Shown here: positions 7,316 to 35,701 of the stretch, one piece after another
How positions within the stretch are numbered: position 1 is the first letter of the stretch
Layout: the number at the start of each line of letters is the position of its first letter
Assembly: GCA_944323995.1 (NCBI GenBank)
Contig: CALUUN010000011.1
Location: 1-43,961 of the forward strand
DNA from: Candidatus Gastranaerophilales bacterium
GTDB lineage: Bacteria > Cyanobacteriota > Vampirovibrionia > Gastranaerophilales > Gastranaerophilaceae
DNA: 43,961 bases
Direction of reading: 5' to 3'
Notes under the pieces: model-generated
The model's database searches: none
Seen by the model: only the letters and a program-made list of their open reading frames with translations
Told to the model about the DNA's origin: nothing
Position numbers and translations under genes: made by a program

Positions 7316-8386
7316 ATGGGGGGGGGTACTTCTTTAAGCTCTCACCGTGCTGGTTTCGGGGTATTTTGGAGTAAAGGTTTTACGCTTGCGGAGGTTTTAA
7401 TCACTCTTGCAATCATCGGAATAGTTGCGGCACTGACAATCCCGACGTTAGTGCAGAACTATCAAACAAGAGCATGGAACACAGCATCACAGGTATTCCA
7501 GAGAAAACTCGGTGAAGCATTAAGGGTAATGAATGTTCAAGGAACCTTAGCAGGCTATACAACAACAGAAGCATTTGTTGATGAATTATCTAAACATATT
7601 AAGATTACAAGAATATGTGAAAATGATGATATCACAACATGCTTTTCAGATACCGTAACCTGGGGTGATGAAGAAGTTGATATGTCTAAGATTAAAAAAG
7701 CTAAAAACTTCGGACAAAATGATTGGGATACAAATACAGTTGCCGTACAATTTGCAAACGGTGTGAACGGTGTAATAGCATACAATCCGGATTGCAGACA
7801 GAACCAATTCAGTAATGATGTAATAACAGTAGGAGAAAACGGAATAGGAACAACCTGTCTTGCAATACTGTATGATGTAGATGGATTCAAGAACCCTAAT
7901 ACCCAGCAAAAAGATTTAAGAGGCCTAAACGTAATAAGTTTAGGCAGCAACTGTGCAATAGAACTAAGTGACGGAACATGTTTTACTGCACCTTTCTATC
8001 ATATTGCATTAACCCATGCAGAATGTATAGAAAGACAATCAGAACTTGGCATAGAATATTGTAAAGATGACAATAATGATTTCTGGGGCGGTGCAGTAAA
8101 AACATGCCATGATATGGGCTCAAGTTTACCGAGCCAGGAACAGTTAGACCAATTAGCGAGAGACTTGTATCCCGGAGCAACAATAAATACGGGCATAGGA
8201 GTAAGTAGTACAGGTGGCAGCAGAGATAACGACCTTGCAGTATCAATGGGCTTTATCTCATCTTCCGGCTATACGTTTTGGCTGTGGTCGAGTGAGGAGA
8301 ACAGCAAGTCCTACGCGTACTACCGCTGCTTCAGCCCCACGAGCACGTACCGTACCAGCAACATCCGCGACATCAGCAACGCTTAG
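7316..8386 (+). CDS. type IV prepilin-like protein with C-terminal lectin-like domain, copy 2 (probably phase-variable)
   Basis: The frame as read starts at ATG 7316, whose G is the first of nine G, but no ribosome-binding site precedes it. A better start is ATG 7290 (or 7293) behind AAAGGGG. In that frame the peptide reads MMDSEFQPKW, enters the G tract and stops at TAA a few codons later; one extra G would fuse it to the pilin frame. The protein has the prepilin site SKG/FTLAE with a hydrophobic helix, a middle region nearly identical to copy 1, and a lectin-like C-terminus (FWGGAVKTC, LPSQEQL, FWLWSSEE). It ends at TAG 8384, where copy 1 has CAG; six more codons (AVCLAE) would follow to the ancestral stop at 8405. 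It is probably a surface or pseudopilus component; its partner is unknown. Confidence 0.78.
   Translation: MGGGTSLSSHRAGFGVFWSKGFTLAEVLITLAIIGIVAALTIPTLVQNYQTRAWNTASQVFQRKLGEALRVMNVQGTLAGYTTTEAFVDELSKHIKITRICENDDITTCFSDTVTWGDEEVDMSKIKKAKNFGQNDWDTNTVAVQFANGVNGVIAYNPDCRQNQFSNDVITVGENGIGTTCLAILYDVDGFKNPNTQQKDLRGLNVISLGSNCAIELSDGTCFTAPFYHIALTHAECIERQSELGIEYCKDDNNDFWGGAVKTCHDMGSSLPSQEQLDQLARDLYPGATINTGIGVSSTGGSRDNDLAVSMGFISSSGYTFWLWSSEENSKSYAYYRCFSPTSTYRTSNIRDISNA
7318..7326 (+). repeat. nine-G homopolymer, candidate phase-variation switch
   Basis: Nine consecutive G lie between the Shine-Dalgarno-linked ATG (7290) and the prepilin cleavage site. At nine G the upstream start is out of frame with the pilin; at ten (or seven) it is in frame. 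Slipped-strand changes of such tracts switch surface proteins in other bacteria. A sequencing or assembly error of one G is the main alternative. Confidence 0.6.
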
Positions 8387-12526: not shown

Positions 12527-14083
12527 ATGATTAACAGAATTAGCAGTGTAGAAAACAGTAAATATACCCCTAATCGGGATGTAAAACATCAACCGGCTTT
12601 CAAAGGCGTTGGCGATGTTTTGTTGCGCGGCATTCAGCTTTGCGAAGAAATGCCGATGGTTAACGTATCTGTACTGGATTTGTCAACTGCGATTATTCCG
12701 CGTACAATTATAGAAACCAAAGAATCTAATGCTTATGCCGGTATGGAAGCGTTCCGCCGTGAATCCTCAGGGTTGATTGTTAACTGTCTTTTGCCCAGCT
12801 TTATTGTTATGGGTATGGCTGCGCTTTTGCAAAAAACAGGTATGTTCAAAGATATTAAGGGTATGTCTAATGTCTGGGCAAACGAAGAATCTTTGAAAAT
12901 AGTTCAAAAATATCTTCAAAATGCAGAAGGCAAAGGTTCAATAAAACTTGAACATGCTCTGAAATCTTTCGTTAACGATTTGTCAGGTATTGACGGAAAT
13001 ACTAAAAAAGCGTTTAAAGATTTTGATTTGCAATCCGGCATAAAAGCCGCTGCAAAATCTTCCCGTCTCAAAAACGGCAAAAAACTTTTCAACAGAGGTT
13101 ATGCGGAAATTGCAGGCAAAACCCATATGACCGAACACCTTGAACTTAACGGTAAAGTTCTTTCTAAAAACCTTAAAGGATTTATGGAAGATTTCGTTTA
13201 TGTTCATAAAGCGGTTGAAAAGAACGGCATAAAAACCGCTGAAGAGTTTTCTAAATTTATTAATAAATCAGTAAAACTGGTAAACTGGAAAAGTTTTGCA
13301 GGTTTGGGTGTCATTTTGCCGCTTGCTATATCAATGCAGCCTTTGAACAGATGGCTTACCGCAAGACACTCCGGTGTAAAAGGCGCGCCTATTTACAAAG
13401 ATTTTGCACAAAATAAGGACAATCGTGAACTTTCTTCAAATGAAAAAGCTGCACTTTTAAAACAAAAATTTATATCCGTAGGTTCAATGCTTGCAGTTAT
13501 GCTTATGTCAATGGGCTTTAAACTGCCTAATAAACAGATGCTCCAATTCAAAGGAATTTTCCCGACAATGGATCAGGCAAGGTTTATTTCAACAGCAACT
13601 TTTGCAAGCCGTATGATGGCATCTGAAGATAAAAACGAACTCAGAGAAGCAACCATACGTGATATAGCAACCTTCTCAAGTCTTTACTTTTTAGGTGATT
13701 ACGCCGCAAAAGGTGTTGCTACGCTTATTGAAAAAGTAAGACCGGATGTAAAATTGTTGAACAGATTAAAAGAAACCCCGAAAGATGCAAATGCAATGAA
13801 AAAATTCTTGCACTGGGTTAAAGACGTAAGTCTGAAATCCTCGGATGAAGTTGCCGGCAAAACAGCCAAAAACTTCCGCTCCGTATGCCAGCTCGGCAAT
13901 CTGGCATTCTCATTGCTTGCCCTTGGTATATTTATCCCGCTTTATACCCGTACACAAACTAACAAAAAACGTGAAGCGGAGTTGAAAAAGCTGGCGGAAT
14001 CCGTTAGTTCTACAAACGGATTTTTGAAAGACCAAATCAAAAATAATTCACCCGCATTTAAATCTTTTTTTAGTTTACAATAG
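12527..14083 (+). CDS. unknown multi-pass membrane protein, N-terminal FxG motif (paralogue 1)
   Basis: I do not recognise this 518-residue protein. It begins with a polar, Asn-rich N-terminus ending in PAFKG (F25-G27). Hydrophobic segments follow near 83-101, 259-280, 319-337 and 455-475, with a Lys-rich tail. It is a paralogue of the next gene. Shared blocks are a PRT tripeptide near 58, RREx(S)G near 77-82, QP-x-N, G-x-x-PT-x-x-Q, and DK(N/D)ELREAT(I/V)-x-D near 368. It starts the operon, behind a palindromic promoter. It has no classical signal peptide and no catalytic motif I can name. An envelope or internal-membrane role is inference. Confidence 0.75.
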   Translation: MINRISSVENSKYTPNRDVKHQPAFKGVGDVLLRGIQLCEEMPMVNVSVLDLSTAIIPRTIIETKESNAYAGMEAFRRESSGLIVNCLLPSFIVMGMAALLQKTGMFKDIKGMSNVWANEESLKIVQKYLQNAEGKGSIKLEHALKSFVNDLSGIDGNTKKAFKDFDLQSGIKAAAKSSRLKNGKKLFNRGYAEIAGKTHMTEHLELNGKVLSKNLKGFMEDFVYVHKAVEKNGIKTAEEFSKFINKSVKLVNWKSFAGLGVILPLAISMQPLNRWLTARHSGVKGAPIYKDFAQNKDNRELSSNEKAALLKQKFISVGSMLAVMLMSMGFKLPNKQMLQFKGIFPTMDQARFISTATFASRMMASEDKNELREATIRDIATFSSLYFLGDYAAKGVATLIEKVRPDVKLLNRLKETPKDANAMKKFLHWVKDVSLKSSDEVAGKTAKNFRSVCQLGNLAFSLLALGIFIPLYTRTQTNKKREAELKKLAESVSSTNGFLKDQIKNNSPAFKSFFSLQ

Positions 14084-14092
14084 GTATAGAAC

Positions 14093-15652
14093 ATGAAAGT
14101 ACAACAAATTAATCAACAACAAAACTACAATAAGAATAATAACCGTCAAACCTTTACCGGTGCTGCGGATACAGCTGTTCAGTTATTGAGATTTCTTGAT
14201 ACGAATCAGGCATGGGGTGCAACAGCGGTAGACTTTTCGTGCATGGTTGCACCGAGAACTTTAACCGATTTTACAAGAGGTCCTGCAGCAGGTGTTGAAA
14301 CATTGCGCCGTGAGGCAAGCGGTACTGTTAACCATGCGGCCGTAGGTCTTGTATACGGGCCTCTTGCAGGTATGCTGCTTGCTGCGGCAGTAAATTCAAA
14401 ATACGGTATAAAAGCTCAAAATATTTATGCTGATTCTGATGCTGTAGATATATTGAGCAAGTTCCGCTATGATGTTTTGAAGTCAGACAGTTCGGATAAC
14501 GCAATTGATTATGCAAAACGCGTTGCCTCAAGTATTTCTTCAGGCGACGGTAAAAAATTCTTATCTGAAGATGCAGGTGAAAAATTTGCCCGAACTCTTG
14601 CTAAAGAAATTAAATCACCCGACAAAGCCAATAAAGCAATGCTTAAAAATATTGTTCTTTCCGATTTGGGCGAAGAAGCGAACATCCTTTTAAAATCGGG
14701 TGAAAAAGAGGTTAAAACTTCTCTTAACGATATTGTTGATAACATCACTTCAATGTCAAAAGCGCTGTTTAAGGATAAAGTTGTTGAATCCTTTAATCAC
14801 GCAGCAAAATTTGAAGATGTAAATTTTGTAAAAACATTAAAGAATTTCGGGCTTCGAAGATCATTGCTCGGCCTCGGAATTGCATCAGCAATTGGCTGCT
14901 GTATTCAGCCGTTTAATATTTATTTGACTAAAAAGAAAACAGGCAGCGACGGATTTGTCGGTGTAGAAGGCCGTGAAAAAGATAAATCAGCCGGATTTAT
15001 GGCTTTGAAAACTGGCGTTGCGGCCGCATTCGGTACTATGGTTTACGGCTTGATTACAAAATTCAATCCGAAAAACTTCCTGCCTAACATCCAATACAAA
15101 GGCATTACGCCGACTTTGAATCAGTTCAAACTTGTTTACGGTTTGACTATTATGTCAAGATTTTTAGCTGCCCGTGATAAAGATGAATTGCGCGAAGCAA
15201 CTGTAAAAGACACGCTCGGTTACCTGAGCTGGCTTGTATTCGGTAACTTTGTTGCAAGAGGCACATTAAAAGCTCTTGATAAAAACCTAATCGGCAAAAC
15301 AAGAGATGAAGTCCTCTACGGTGCATTGAAAAAAGCAGGTATTTCAACCGTTAAAGACGGTAAAGCATTACCGTTCAAAGAATTATTGAAATTACTGCCG
15401 AAAACCGATAAAGCTGCAAGAAAGAGTCTGCGTTACTTAAATATTGCACAGCTTGCCGGTTATGCATTCTCCGGAATCGTGCTCGGTGTCGGTGTTCCGA
15501 AATTGAATATATATATGACGAAGAAAAGTGAACAAAAACGTGCTCAACTCCGAGCAATGAATCCGGCAAACAATATGCTTAAACCCGAAAACATAGCATT
15601 TTTAAGCAGCCAGATGAGTTTCACATCAAATAAATTGCTCGGAAAAGACTAA
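14093..15652 (+). CDS. unknown multi-pass membrane protein, N-terminal FxG motif (paralogue 2)
   Basis: The 519-residue paralogue of the preceding gene lies 9 bases downstream and is probably co-transcribed. The N-terminus is Gln/Asn-rich and ends in QTFTG (F21-G23). LRREASG, QPFN, GITPTLNQ and DKDELREATVKD match the paralogue. Hydrophobic stretches lie near residues 80-102 and 258-275 and toward the C-terminus, which is basic. The stop codon overlaps the end of atpG by 4 bases tail-to-tail, with no terminator between, so read-through antisense to the ATP synthase operon is possible. Function unknown. Confidence 0.75.
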   Translation: MKVQQINQQQNYNKNNNRQTFTGAADTAVQLLRFLDTNQAWGATAVDFSCMVAPRTLTDFTRGPAAGVETLRREASGTVNHAAVGLVYGPLAGMLLAAAVNSKYGIKAQNIYADSDAVDILSKFRYDVLKSDSSDNAIDYAKRVASSISSGDGKKFLSEDAGEKFARTLAKEIKSPDKANKAMLKNIVLSDLGEEANILLKSGEKEVKTSLNDIVDNITSMSKALFKDKVVESFNHAAKFEDVNFVKTLKNFGLRRSLLGLGIASAIGCCIQPFNIYLTKKKTGSDGFVGVEGREKDKSAGFMALKTGVAAAFGTMVYGLITKFNPKNFLPNIQYKGITPTLNQFKLVYGLTIMSRFLAARDKDELREATVKDTLGYLSWLVFGNFVARGTLKALDKNLIGKTRDEVLYGALKKAGISTVKDGKALPFKELLKLLPKTDKAARKSLRYLNIAQLAGYAFSGIVLGVGVPKLNIYMTKKSEQKRAQLRAMNPANNMLKPENIAFLSSQMSFTSNKLLGKD

Positions 15653-24424: not shown

Positions 24425-24835
24425 CTATGCTAATCCTAAAGTTTTTGCGGCAACAGGTTCAATGTCAATTTCTTTTCCTATTTCTTTCAGGCCGCTGGTA
24501 ACAACATAGTTTAAATCTTCGTTGAATTCTTTTTGTGTTTTTACGGGATAAAGTGTGTCATAGAAATTTGCACAGAGTGTGTCTATTTTTGTTGCAATTT
24601 TATCAAGCACAGGGTATTTTTCGCGCAAAACTACGCTTAATTTGTTCACTGCCCGGCCGAATTCCGCATGTTCAAGCGATTGTACATCGTAATTAGTTAA
24701 TTTGGAAATCACTCTTTTTTGCAATCTGATACTTTCGTCCGTGCCGAAAAGGTTTCTTGCTGTTGCTGCCTGCAGAGCTTCTTTTGCCGGAATTTTCATC
24801 CCGAAACTTTGTGTGTGTGCGTGTTGAATTTTCAT
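24425..24835 (-). CDS. small unknown protein with N-terminal SFG motif (paralogue 1)
   Basis: Unrecognised soluble-looking protein of 136 residues, mostly helical by composition. The N-terminus MKIQHAHTQSFGMK carries the F-G motif (F11-G12) shared with its upstream neighbour (PSFGAK). Both also share an (L/A)xAAT block after the motif, an EKYP-type motif in the middle (REKYPVLDKIA vs VEKYPEVADAA) and a GK-x-(I/M)-D-I ending. The two genes are 9 bases apart and likely form an operon. No signal peptide or membrane segment is seen. Confidence 0.65.
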   Translation of the reverse strand: MKIQHAHTQSFGMKIPAKEALQAATARNLFGTDESIRLQKRVISKLTNYDVQSLEHAEFGRAVNKLSVVLREKYPVLDKIATKIDTLCANFYDTLYPVKTQKEFNEDLNYVVTSGLKEIGKEIDIEPVAAKTLGLA

Positions 24836-24844
24836 ATTAACTCC

Positions 24845-25192
24845 TTATATTGTTATGTCCATTGTTTTGCCTAATTTTTTTATGTACGGTTGTACGAATT
24901 CCTGAAGTTCTTTTTTTGCGGCATTTGGATTTTTGTCGCAGTATTCAAGTATATCAAATGCGGCATCGGCGACTTCGGGATACTTTTCAACTATTTTGTC
25001 GCCTATGTTTTTCAGGTAATACCTGTAGCCGCGGTTGCCTGTCGCTTTTAATTTTTTCGGCCATAGCGCATCTATAAGCGGCTTCATATCGGATACGGAT
25101 TCTCTCGTAATTGATTTGAATGTAGCAGCCTCGAGCACTCTTATTGTGTCTACTTTTGCGCCGAAAGAAGGCGTTGTTTTATTTATTTGCAT
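24845..25192 (-). CDS. small unknown protein with N-terminal SFG motif (paralogue 2)
   Basis: Unrecognised protein of 115 residues. It starts MQINKTTPSFGAK (F10-G11), then LEAAT, VEKYPEVADAAFDI, and ends GKTMDITI. It resembles the downstream neighbour along its length and is probably its distant paralogue and first gene of a two-gene operon. No known domain was recognised. Confidence 0.65.
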   Translation of the reverse strand: MQINKTTPSFGAKVDTIRVLEAATFKSITRESVSDMKPLIDALWPKKLKATGNRGYRYYLKNIGDKIVEKYPEVADAAFDILEYCDKNPNAAKKELQEFVQPYIKKLGKTMDITI

Positions 25193-27266: not shown

Positions 27267-27887
27267 ATGAACTTCACCGTACTTACATACTTGGGTGGCT
27301 CAATGGTAAGTGTAAATAAATTAAGAAATATCTCTTTTTCAAGAGGGTATGCGAGATTTGCTCGCAAGGCCACTCAATTGGGGCTGGACTTGTGCGGCGG
27401 AAAAAACAGGCTGCTTAATATCAATTCAGAGGGAAAAAATAAAGCCATTGATTGGATAGGAAAAAATTTATCATCCGCTGAAAACCGTTTGATTTTAGGT
27501 GCATCAGCTTTAATGTCCCAGCCGTTTATTGATGCTGCAAATAAAGACGTTGATTCGGAAACCAGAAGAATTTCAGTCTGCCGCACAGTGGCTAAAATTA
27601 TTGCCGGTACCGCAACCGGTTATTCTATCCGAAAACTGTGTATAAAAACCATTGATGCATTCACCAAAGATCCGGCCAAGCTGAAAGAAGGGGCAAAATT
27701 CAACAAATTAAGGACATGCCTGCTTCCTGCACTGAAATATACTGCGGATGAACTTTCGCAGTATAAAAATGCACTCGGCACCCTGCTTGCGCTTGGTGTA
27801 ATGGTATTTACAAACTTCCTGATTGATGCCCCGCTTACCAAATTTTTGACAAATGTTTTTGCCGGAAAGGGGGATAAAAATGTTTAG
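27267..27887 (+). CDS. unknown protein, first of a two-gene unit
   Basis: 206 residues from ATG 27267; an internal ATG at 27303 (MVSVNKLRNISFSRG) gives a start resembling the FxG-type N-termini elsewhere in the window and is preceded by GGTGG, so it may be the true start. Hydrophobic segments lie near 72-90, 108-122 and 165-190. No family is recognised. Its end overlaps the next gene by 8 bases. It ends in a charged GKGDKNV tail. Confidence 0.6.
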   Translation: MNFTVLTYLGGSMVSVNKLRNISFSRGYARFARKATQLGLDLCGGKNRLLNINSEGKNKAIDWIGKNLSSAENRLILGASALMSQPFIDAANKDVDSETRRISVCRTVAKIIAGTATGYSIRKLCIKTIDAFTKDPAKLKEGAKFNKLRTCLLPALKYTADELSQYKNALGTLLALGVMVFTNFLIDAPLTKFLTNVFAGKGDKNV

Positions 27888-35083: not shown

Positions 35084-35701
35084 TTACTTATAATCACTGA
35101 ATGTAATTGAATCAATGGTAACTTTAAAATCTTCCGCACCTTTTCTCTTAACGGGTTTTGCCGATACATTAAGGTTCATCTGCTGGTAATTCCCTGCTTT
35201 TTCAAGCGTGTTTGGTATAAATGTTTCTCTTATACGGTAAAGCAGATTGTTACCTACATCTGCGACGTATTGCCAGTAATTCTTCTTTGCCTGTTCAAGT
35301 TTTGGCGATGTAGAAACGTTATATTCATTACATTCTCTCTGCGCCAGTCCTATCTGTCGTCCGAGATCGGAAAGATTTTCGGACGGTTTGCCGGTTACAA
35401 TATATCCGCGGTTGTGCTTGTCGAATATTATTTTGAAAAACTTTGACGCTGTTAATTTTTGGTCCGGAATTAATCTGTCATAGCCAAAAAATGCACGTGC
35501 GTATTTATAGTCATTATCCATTACTGATAATTGTGCCGCCGCAACCTTGAAGTCAGGTTTTTCTCTGAGCGGGCCTGACAGGCCTTTAACAGCATTCTGG
35601 CATGCTTTGTGAACTATTTTTTTGTTAAGCGTTTCTTTGCCGTCAAGAATTACCTTAACAGGTATTACGCCGCTGAAACTGATGTTGTTGTTCACGTTCA
35701 T
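35084..35701 (-). CDS. unknown protein with N-terminal SFSG motif
   Basis: 205 residues, not recognised. The N-terminus MNVNNNISFSGVI has the Asn-rich leader and F-x-G motif (F9-G11) seen in several other proteins of the window. The rest is basic and without membrane helices (KNYWQYVADVGNNLLYRIRETF near the middle). It stands alone between an oxidoreductase and the smc operon's last gene on the same strand. Confidence 0.65.
   Translation of the reverse strand: MNVNNNISFSGVIPVKVILDGKETLNKKIVHKACQNAVKGLSGPLREKPDFKVAAAQLSVMDNDYKYARAFFGYDRLIPDQKLTASKFFKIIFDKHNRGYIVTGKPSENLSDLGRQIGLAQRECNEYNVSTSPKLEQAKKNYWQYVADVGNNLLYRIRETFIPNTLEKAGNYQQMNLNVSAKPVKRKGAEDFKVTIDSITFSDYK

Follow-up and report, generated by a model that had tools for sequence, protein, structure and literature searches.

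Comparison of related sequences indicates that a short N-terminal tag with a Phe-x-Gly layout is real and under selection in Candidatus Gastranaerophilales, an uncultured, gut-dwelling and non-photosynthetic cyanobacterial relative with a genome of 1.75 Mb. The tag was found in a window of 43,961 nucleotides, and in a sample covering 48% of the genome it recurs on about 20–25 largely unrelated proteins. The layout looks like an undescribed address label. An earlier note had likened short N-termini of this kind, common to otherwise unlike proteins, to sorting or processing signals, and the comparison with sorting gained ground: the tag recurs, it is conserved despite drift of the leader, and it is carried by only one of two GH77 paralogues. 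Our leading reading, which we hold at somewhat under an even chance, is that the tag may serve as an N-terminal docking signal for a flagellum-type export system without flagellin; the docking, the receptor and the export are each inferred. It is possible, though we would not call it probable, that Phe-x-Gly is a new sorting code that sends dozens of unrelated proteins, enzymes included, to a flagellum-derived, non-flagellar exporter hitherto read as a decayed flagellum.

Should the tag prove to be an address label, it would offer a way into the large part of the Gastranaerophilales proteome that counts as unknown, and sequence alone would predict which proteins travel together. A supposedly degenerate flagellar gene set would become a functioning exporter whose candidate cargo can be named. 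A signal built around a single residue and tolerant of nearly any leader would, besides, show with unusual clarity how minimal sorting signals are read.

Tagged proteins in the window and conservation of the Phe

All six N-termini singled out in the earlier note are present in the sequence as it gave them. The tag MINRISSVENSKYTPNRDVKHQPAFKG (12527..12607, plus strand) opens a hydrophobic, Gly/Ala-rich protein of 518 aa (12527..14083, plus strand); its F is kept in every aligned family member and its leader is variable. The tag MKVQQINQQQNYNKNNNRQTFTG (14093..14161, plus strand) opens a mostly helical protein of 519 aa (14093..15652, plus strand), whose family occurs in 38 of the 40 Gastranaerophilales as well as in the outgroup families f9 and f15; here F21 is invariant. 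On the minus strand, the gene starting at 24835 reads MKIQHAHTQSFGMK and carries the tag MKIQHAHTQSFG (24800..24835) on a protein of 136 aa (24425..24835), with the F kept in 8/9 and the G in 9/9 orthologues. The minus-strand gene starting at 25192 reads MQINKTTPSFGAK; its tag, MQINKTTPSFG (25160..25192), belongs to a protein of 115 aa (24845..25192) and appears in orthologues as SQPAFGAK, TQPGFGAK and SQTAFGTK. A protein of 205 aa (35084..35701, minus strand) begins with MNVNNNISFSG (35669..35701, minus strand); the F is present in 17/17 orthologues, behind leaders of 4–14 residues, and the third residue is G or S. The sixth tag, MVSVNKLRNISFSRG (27303..27347, plus strand), opens a gene at 27303–27887, or 27267–27887 if an upstream ATG at 27267 is used, and its body is weakly similar to another tagged family, that of L016:4545 (E 4e-4).

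The two pairs that had been called paralogous are indeed so, with 26% identity for 12527/14093 (E 1e-28) and 27% for 24425/24845 (E 5e-7). The description of the bodies as proteins of unknown function also stands, as none scored above cut-off for any Pfam or NCBIfam family. Neither PHROGs nor PDB sequences gave the tagged proteins of the window a match above cut-off. An AlphaFold2 model of the 14093 protein (mean pLDDT 72.9) has a mostly helical body predicted with moderate confidence. Residues 1–27, the tag included, have pLDDT below 50 and are disordered in the model. Comparison of the model with PDB folds gave none at E≤0.001 (best E 0.26). Many closely similar prepilin-like proteins (GFTLAEVLITLAIIGIVAALTIPTLVQN) are encoded as well, at 115–1101 and 7316–8386 of the window and elsewhere in the genome (L004:281, L004:12739, L010:5234, L010:14070 and L086:14497); some have a repeated leader, MGGGTSLSSHRAGFGVFWSK.

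Conservation in orthologues was clear. In the five families of this genome that were aligned, 85 of 86 N-termini have the Phe (22/22, 8/9, 17/17, 20/20 and 18/18 distinct N-termini per family). This is a count of related sequences rather than independent events, and it omits one GH77 row in which the N-terminus could not be read. The leader before the Phe ranges from 4 to about 36 residues overall (16–36, 7–13, 4–14 and 10–26 in four families), and the commonest residue in a leader column averages about half. The 35084 family illustrates this with MQVSFTSVIPV, MDTKISFTGVIPV, MNVNNNISFSGVIPV and MQVNQTTGTNFTGVIPV. Conservation sharpened the motif as first described, Phe-Gly or Phe-x-Gly behind an Asn/Gln-rich leader. 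The Phe is near-invariant; the Gly is usual but looser, being replaced by Ser in the 35084 family (NFTS) and by Arg in the GH77 family (NFQRR). Richness in Asn and Gln holds for the leaders of this lineage but is not an intrinsic property, because in relatives from two other families of the class F-x-G is kept behind Pro/Ala/Arg-rich leaders. In f9 and f15, homologues of the 14093 protein have the tag after leaders of a different kind (MKVAPLPISSYYPVTQPKPAPPTPRFQG, MTIHPTLSGPVPRLTFGRG and MTTLNPVQQNIPNRPVQQAARFKG). In the outgroup comparison of this family, which is a small sample, F.?G lies within residues 4–60 in 12/12 aligned members and the Phe falls in one column in 9/12.

Leaders diverge freely, both within the five families and between families of the class, yet the Phe stays fixed, a pattern that requires selection. 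A constant Phe behind a leader indifferent to sequence looks like a short docking motif. A leader of free sequence with a fixed junction to the body could also be a processing or maturation signal, as the earlier note suggested, in which a dedicated peptidase would cut the leader near the Phe-Gly. However, the residue after the Phe varies (T, S, K, N, G, Q), as does the Gly position (G, S, R), which is loose for a cleavage site, and we regard such processing as unlikely.

Enrichment and the range of tagged proteins

The proteome sample consisted of 803 proteins called from 41 stretches (840 kb, about 48% of the genome) by a simple script, so that some starts may be wrong. The bare string F.?G was not enriched at residues 5–30, and on this count the expectation of an enriched motif was not borne out: it was seen 125 times among the 803 proteins, at a ratio to the internal rate of 1.05 (p=0.55). 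The string is common in ordinary proteins, which accounts for this. A model of context and position, which scores the start, the leader and the two positions preceding the Phe and was trained on relatives only, gave 19 F.?G matches among the 803 proteins, as compared to 0–5 for each of six controls in which F was substituted (Y, W, L, I, V, M) and 0–7 for each of six in which G was substituted (D, E, A, K, L, V). About 13 of the 19 came from families outside the training set. Applied to G035, a genome from another family of the order, the same model gave 9 matches versus 0–4 for controls; it gave 0 and 2 in the small samples from G021 and G059, and none in 264 proteins of family f8. The enrichment lies in the whole layout of start, leader and F.?G and not in the bare string. 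Filters by N/Q content and crude polar-leader rules were also tried and were either too lax or too weak. A reading without function, in which the tag is either a shared ancestral N-terminus carried about by gene fusion or an accident of composition, would agree with the unenriched bare string and with the paralogy of some pairs. It is contradicted by the fixed Phe among freely diverging leaders in the five families and the other families of the class, and we find it scarcely credible.

The tagged bodies with family matches include an AAA ATPase (E 1e-28), a GH77 4-alpha-glucanotransferase (E 5e-33) and an HNH protein. Two more are weakly PARP-like (E 3e-4 and 1e-3), and many have no family match. 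Several look membrane-embedded or like cytoplasmic enzymes. Weak similarity to the PARP catalytic domain is seen in two adjacent tagged proteins of G035 (L201:11207–12022 and L201:12040–12966). In the outgroup genome G063, the second ORF of L285, which by eye resembles an HD-type (SpoT-like) hydrolase, starts MNIRYQLEKTFRLSGAAQARPTRRPQAVRFG and puts the tag on another body. The GH77 enzyme provides the cleanest case. It is present as two paralogues in this genome, a tagged copy (L086:6657, MRVSGVNSTVNFQRR) and an untagged one (L248, MAFDENSTKTIHK), and each of the 18 tagged orthologues with a readable N-terminus retains the Phe. A tag on one of two copies of a known enzyme looks like a targeting signal, and the pair offers a ready natural experiment.

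The identity of these bodies and the position of the motif also bear on docking without export, in which a flexible leader with one Phe would hold these proteins, which would not leave the cell, on a shared hub in the cytoplasm or at the membrane, such as a scaffold, an envelope complex or a storage body. Only the Phe and a small neighbour are fixed, spacing is free and some spacers are very short. The bodies include GH77, AAA and Gly/Ala-rich helical proteins, and GH77 and AAA proteins elsewhere are cytoplasmic. Six strong internal matches to the motif occur in the genome, four of them in proteins that seem by eye to be of the same broad type (L006:12634, L015:1619, L036:4231 and L086:4004). 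However, the motif shows an N-terminal preference (7 seen versus 0.8 expected from internal positions) that a general docking motif does not need, and no hub protein has been identified. We consider docking of this kind the main rival to export and a serious possibility, albeit on the doubtful side.

Comparison with known signals

In most of the tagged proteins, a hydropathy scan did not find the hydrophobic core within about 30 residues, with a cleavage site or lipobox, that marks a Sec, Tat or lipoprotein signal. By eye, a few have a hydrophobic stretch further on (L024:17280 and L188:4454). In L024:17280 the tag is followed by a signal-peptide-like stretch with TTTNAAD, and in L188:4454 and L089:7508 by GLSSC or ATSSC with a lipobox-like Cys, as would be seen if the tag lengthened the N-region of a Sec or lipoprotein signal. 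Since a hydrophobic segment close to the tag is missing in most cases, this fails as a general explanation and is very unlikely.

Flagellar rod and hook subunits dock on FlhB through a gate recognition motif, which accompanies an N-terminal hydrophobic element, and in FlgD spacing is required between the two (PMC8983047). Like FlgD-type signals, the tag is N-terminal and unchaperoned, has a hydrophobic start and joins a flexible spacer to a short hydrophobic motif that may dock, and the homologous export gate FlhA/FlhB/FliPQR is encoded here. Unlike those signals it has no minimum spacing, as leaders are as short as 4 residues, and its motif is Phe with Gly, Ser or Arg, carried on many unrelated bodies and not on rod proteins. 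Because the spacing rule fails, the two-signal reading from Salmonella is kept only as an analogy.

With the signals of type III injectisome effectors the tag shares disorder, a composition rich in Asn, Gln, Ser and Pro and poor in Leu, Asp and Glu, and diverse bodies mostly free of a Sec signal. At residues 2–25, N (2.3x), Q (2.2x), P (1.7x) and S (1.6x) were raised and E (0.36x), L (0.43x) and D (0.57x) depleted in 25 tagged proteins relative to 791 others, a bias that is weak as a type III likeness and arises in part from selection of the set, which was chosen partly by polar leaders. To our knowledge injectisome effector signals have no conserved residue, whereas the tag has one near-invariant Phe, and export is only a candidate role for the tagged proteins. 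FG-nucleoporins also place Phe-Gly in a disordered context rich in Asn, Gln, Ser and Thr, but as multiple repeats; the tag is single in nearly all proteins, with few internal second copies. No known signal fits the tag.

A candidate export apparatus and its possible link to the tag

The genome encodes an export core of FlhA, FliF, FliE, FliH, a FliM/N domain, FliP, FliQ, FliR, rod proteins and FlhB, on contigs C4, C7 and C10 (L004:6587–12425, L007:4301–6548 and L010:9783–13650). A search of the genome for flagellin found none. Partial flagellar gene sets have been described in non-motile Gastranaerophilales (PMC4040986), and the apparatus here is most likely that partial set. It differs from the published picture in that flagellated members of the order carry an export set of the flagellin-less type beside a canonical flagellar set; in the flagellated G030, for example, there are two FlhB genes, two full-length FHIPEP proteins and a separate second gene set. 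Since flagellated members carry both, the set in non-flagellated members reads, from gene content, as a second system rather than a flagellar relic.

Several observations bear on whether this system reads the tag. A stand-alone protein with the FlhA cytoplasmic domain (about 492 aa, PF00771 positions 309–655; L086:8818–10296 and L095:13888–15369) was found in nearly all Gastranaerophilales searched; its N-terminal region resembles DUF4177 by eye. In 18/20 cases, mostly from genomes of the same genus with two other genera sharing the arrangement, the tagged GH77 gene begins 56–199 bp past the match to this gene on the same strand. The linkage is operon-like and provides circumstantial evidence that ties the tag to export. 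At a broader scale, 40/40 Gastranaerophilales have FHIPEP, and none of the listed f8 genomes does. The f8 genomes searched have no member of the 14093 family; f9 and f15, both of which have FHIPEP, contain it. This co-distribution may reflect shared ancestry. Families f14 and f12 have export genes, and the 14093 family was not detected in their thinly sampled proteomes. The rod proteins of the second system do not carry the tag. The rule that a genome without the stand-alone FlhA domain has no tag failed in G017, which gave no match for the domain yet has a tagged start read by eye (MQVNSIGGINFTG); the stand-alone protein is therefore not taken as an obligatory receptor.

In flagellar systems, the cytosolic domains of FlhA and FlhB help to recognise substrates (PMC8983047, PMC10965912). 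By the export reading, the tag would consist of an M-[K/Q/N]-[V/I] start, a flexible polar leader of variable length and one exposed Phe with a Gly (or Ser/Arg), ahead of a folded body. The likeliest receptor would be the second, non-flagellar type III apparatus of flagellum type (FlhA, FlhB, FliP, FliQ, FliR, FliF, FliE, FliH and rod proteins, no flagellin). The tag might dock the protein at FlhA/FlhB-type cytosolic domains, and the unfolded leader would then be threaded first into the export machine. Leaders of as few as 4 residues depart from the spaced FlgD signal, and the internal copies of the motif in some related proteins are odd for an export signal. Tagged bodies that look membrane-embedded or like cytoplasmic enzymes also count against export. 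These weak points are why export is preferred only tentatively and docking without export is retained beside it. In the literature we found neither the tag nor a second type III system described for Gastranaerophilales. Beside the export genes, three proteins without a Pfam match (L004:1322, L010:193 and L010:7874) share MG[ML]AASQAR starts and are candidate structural substrates.
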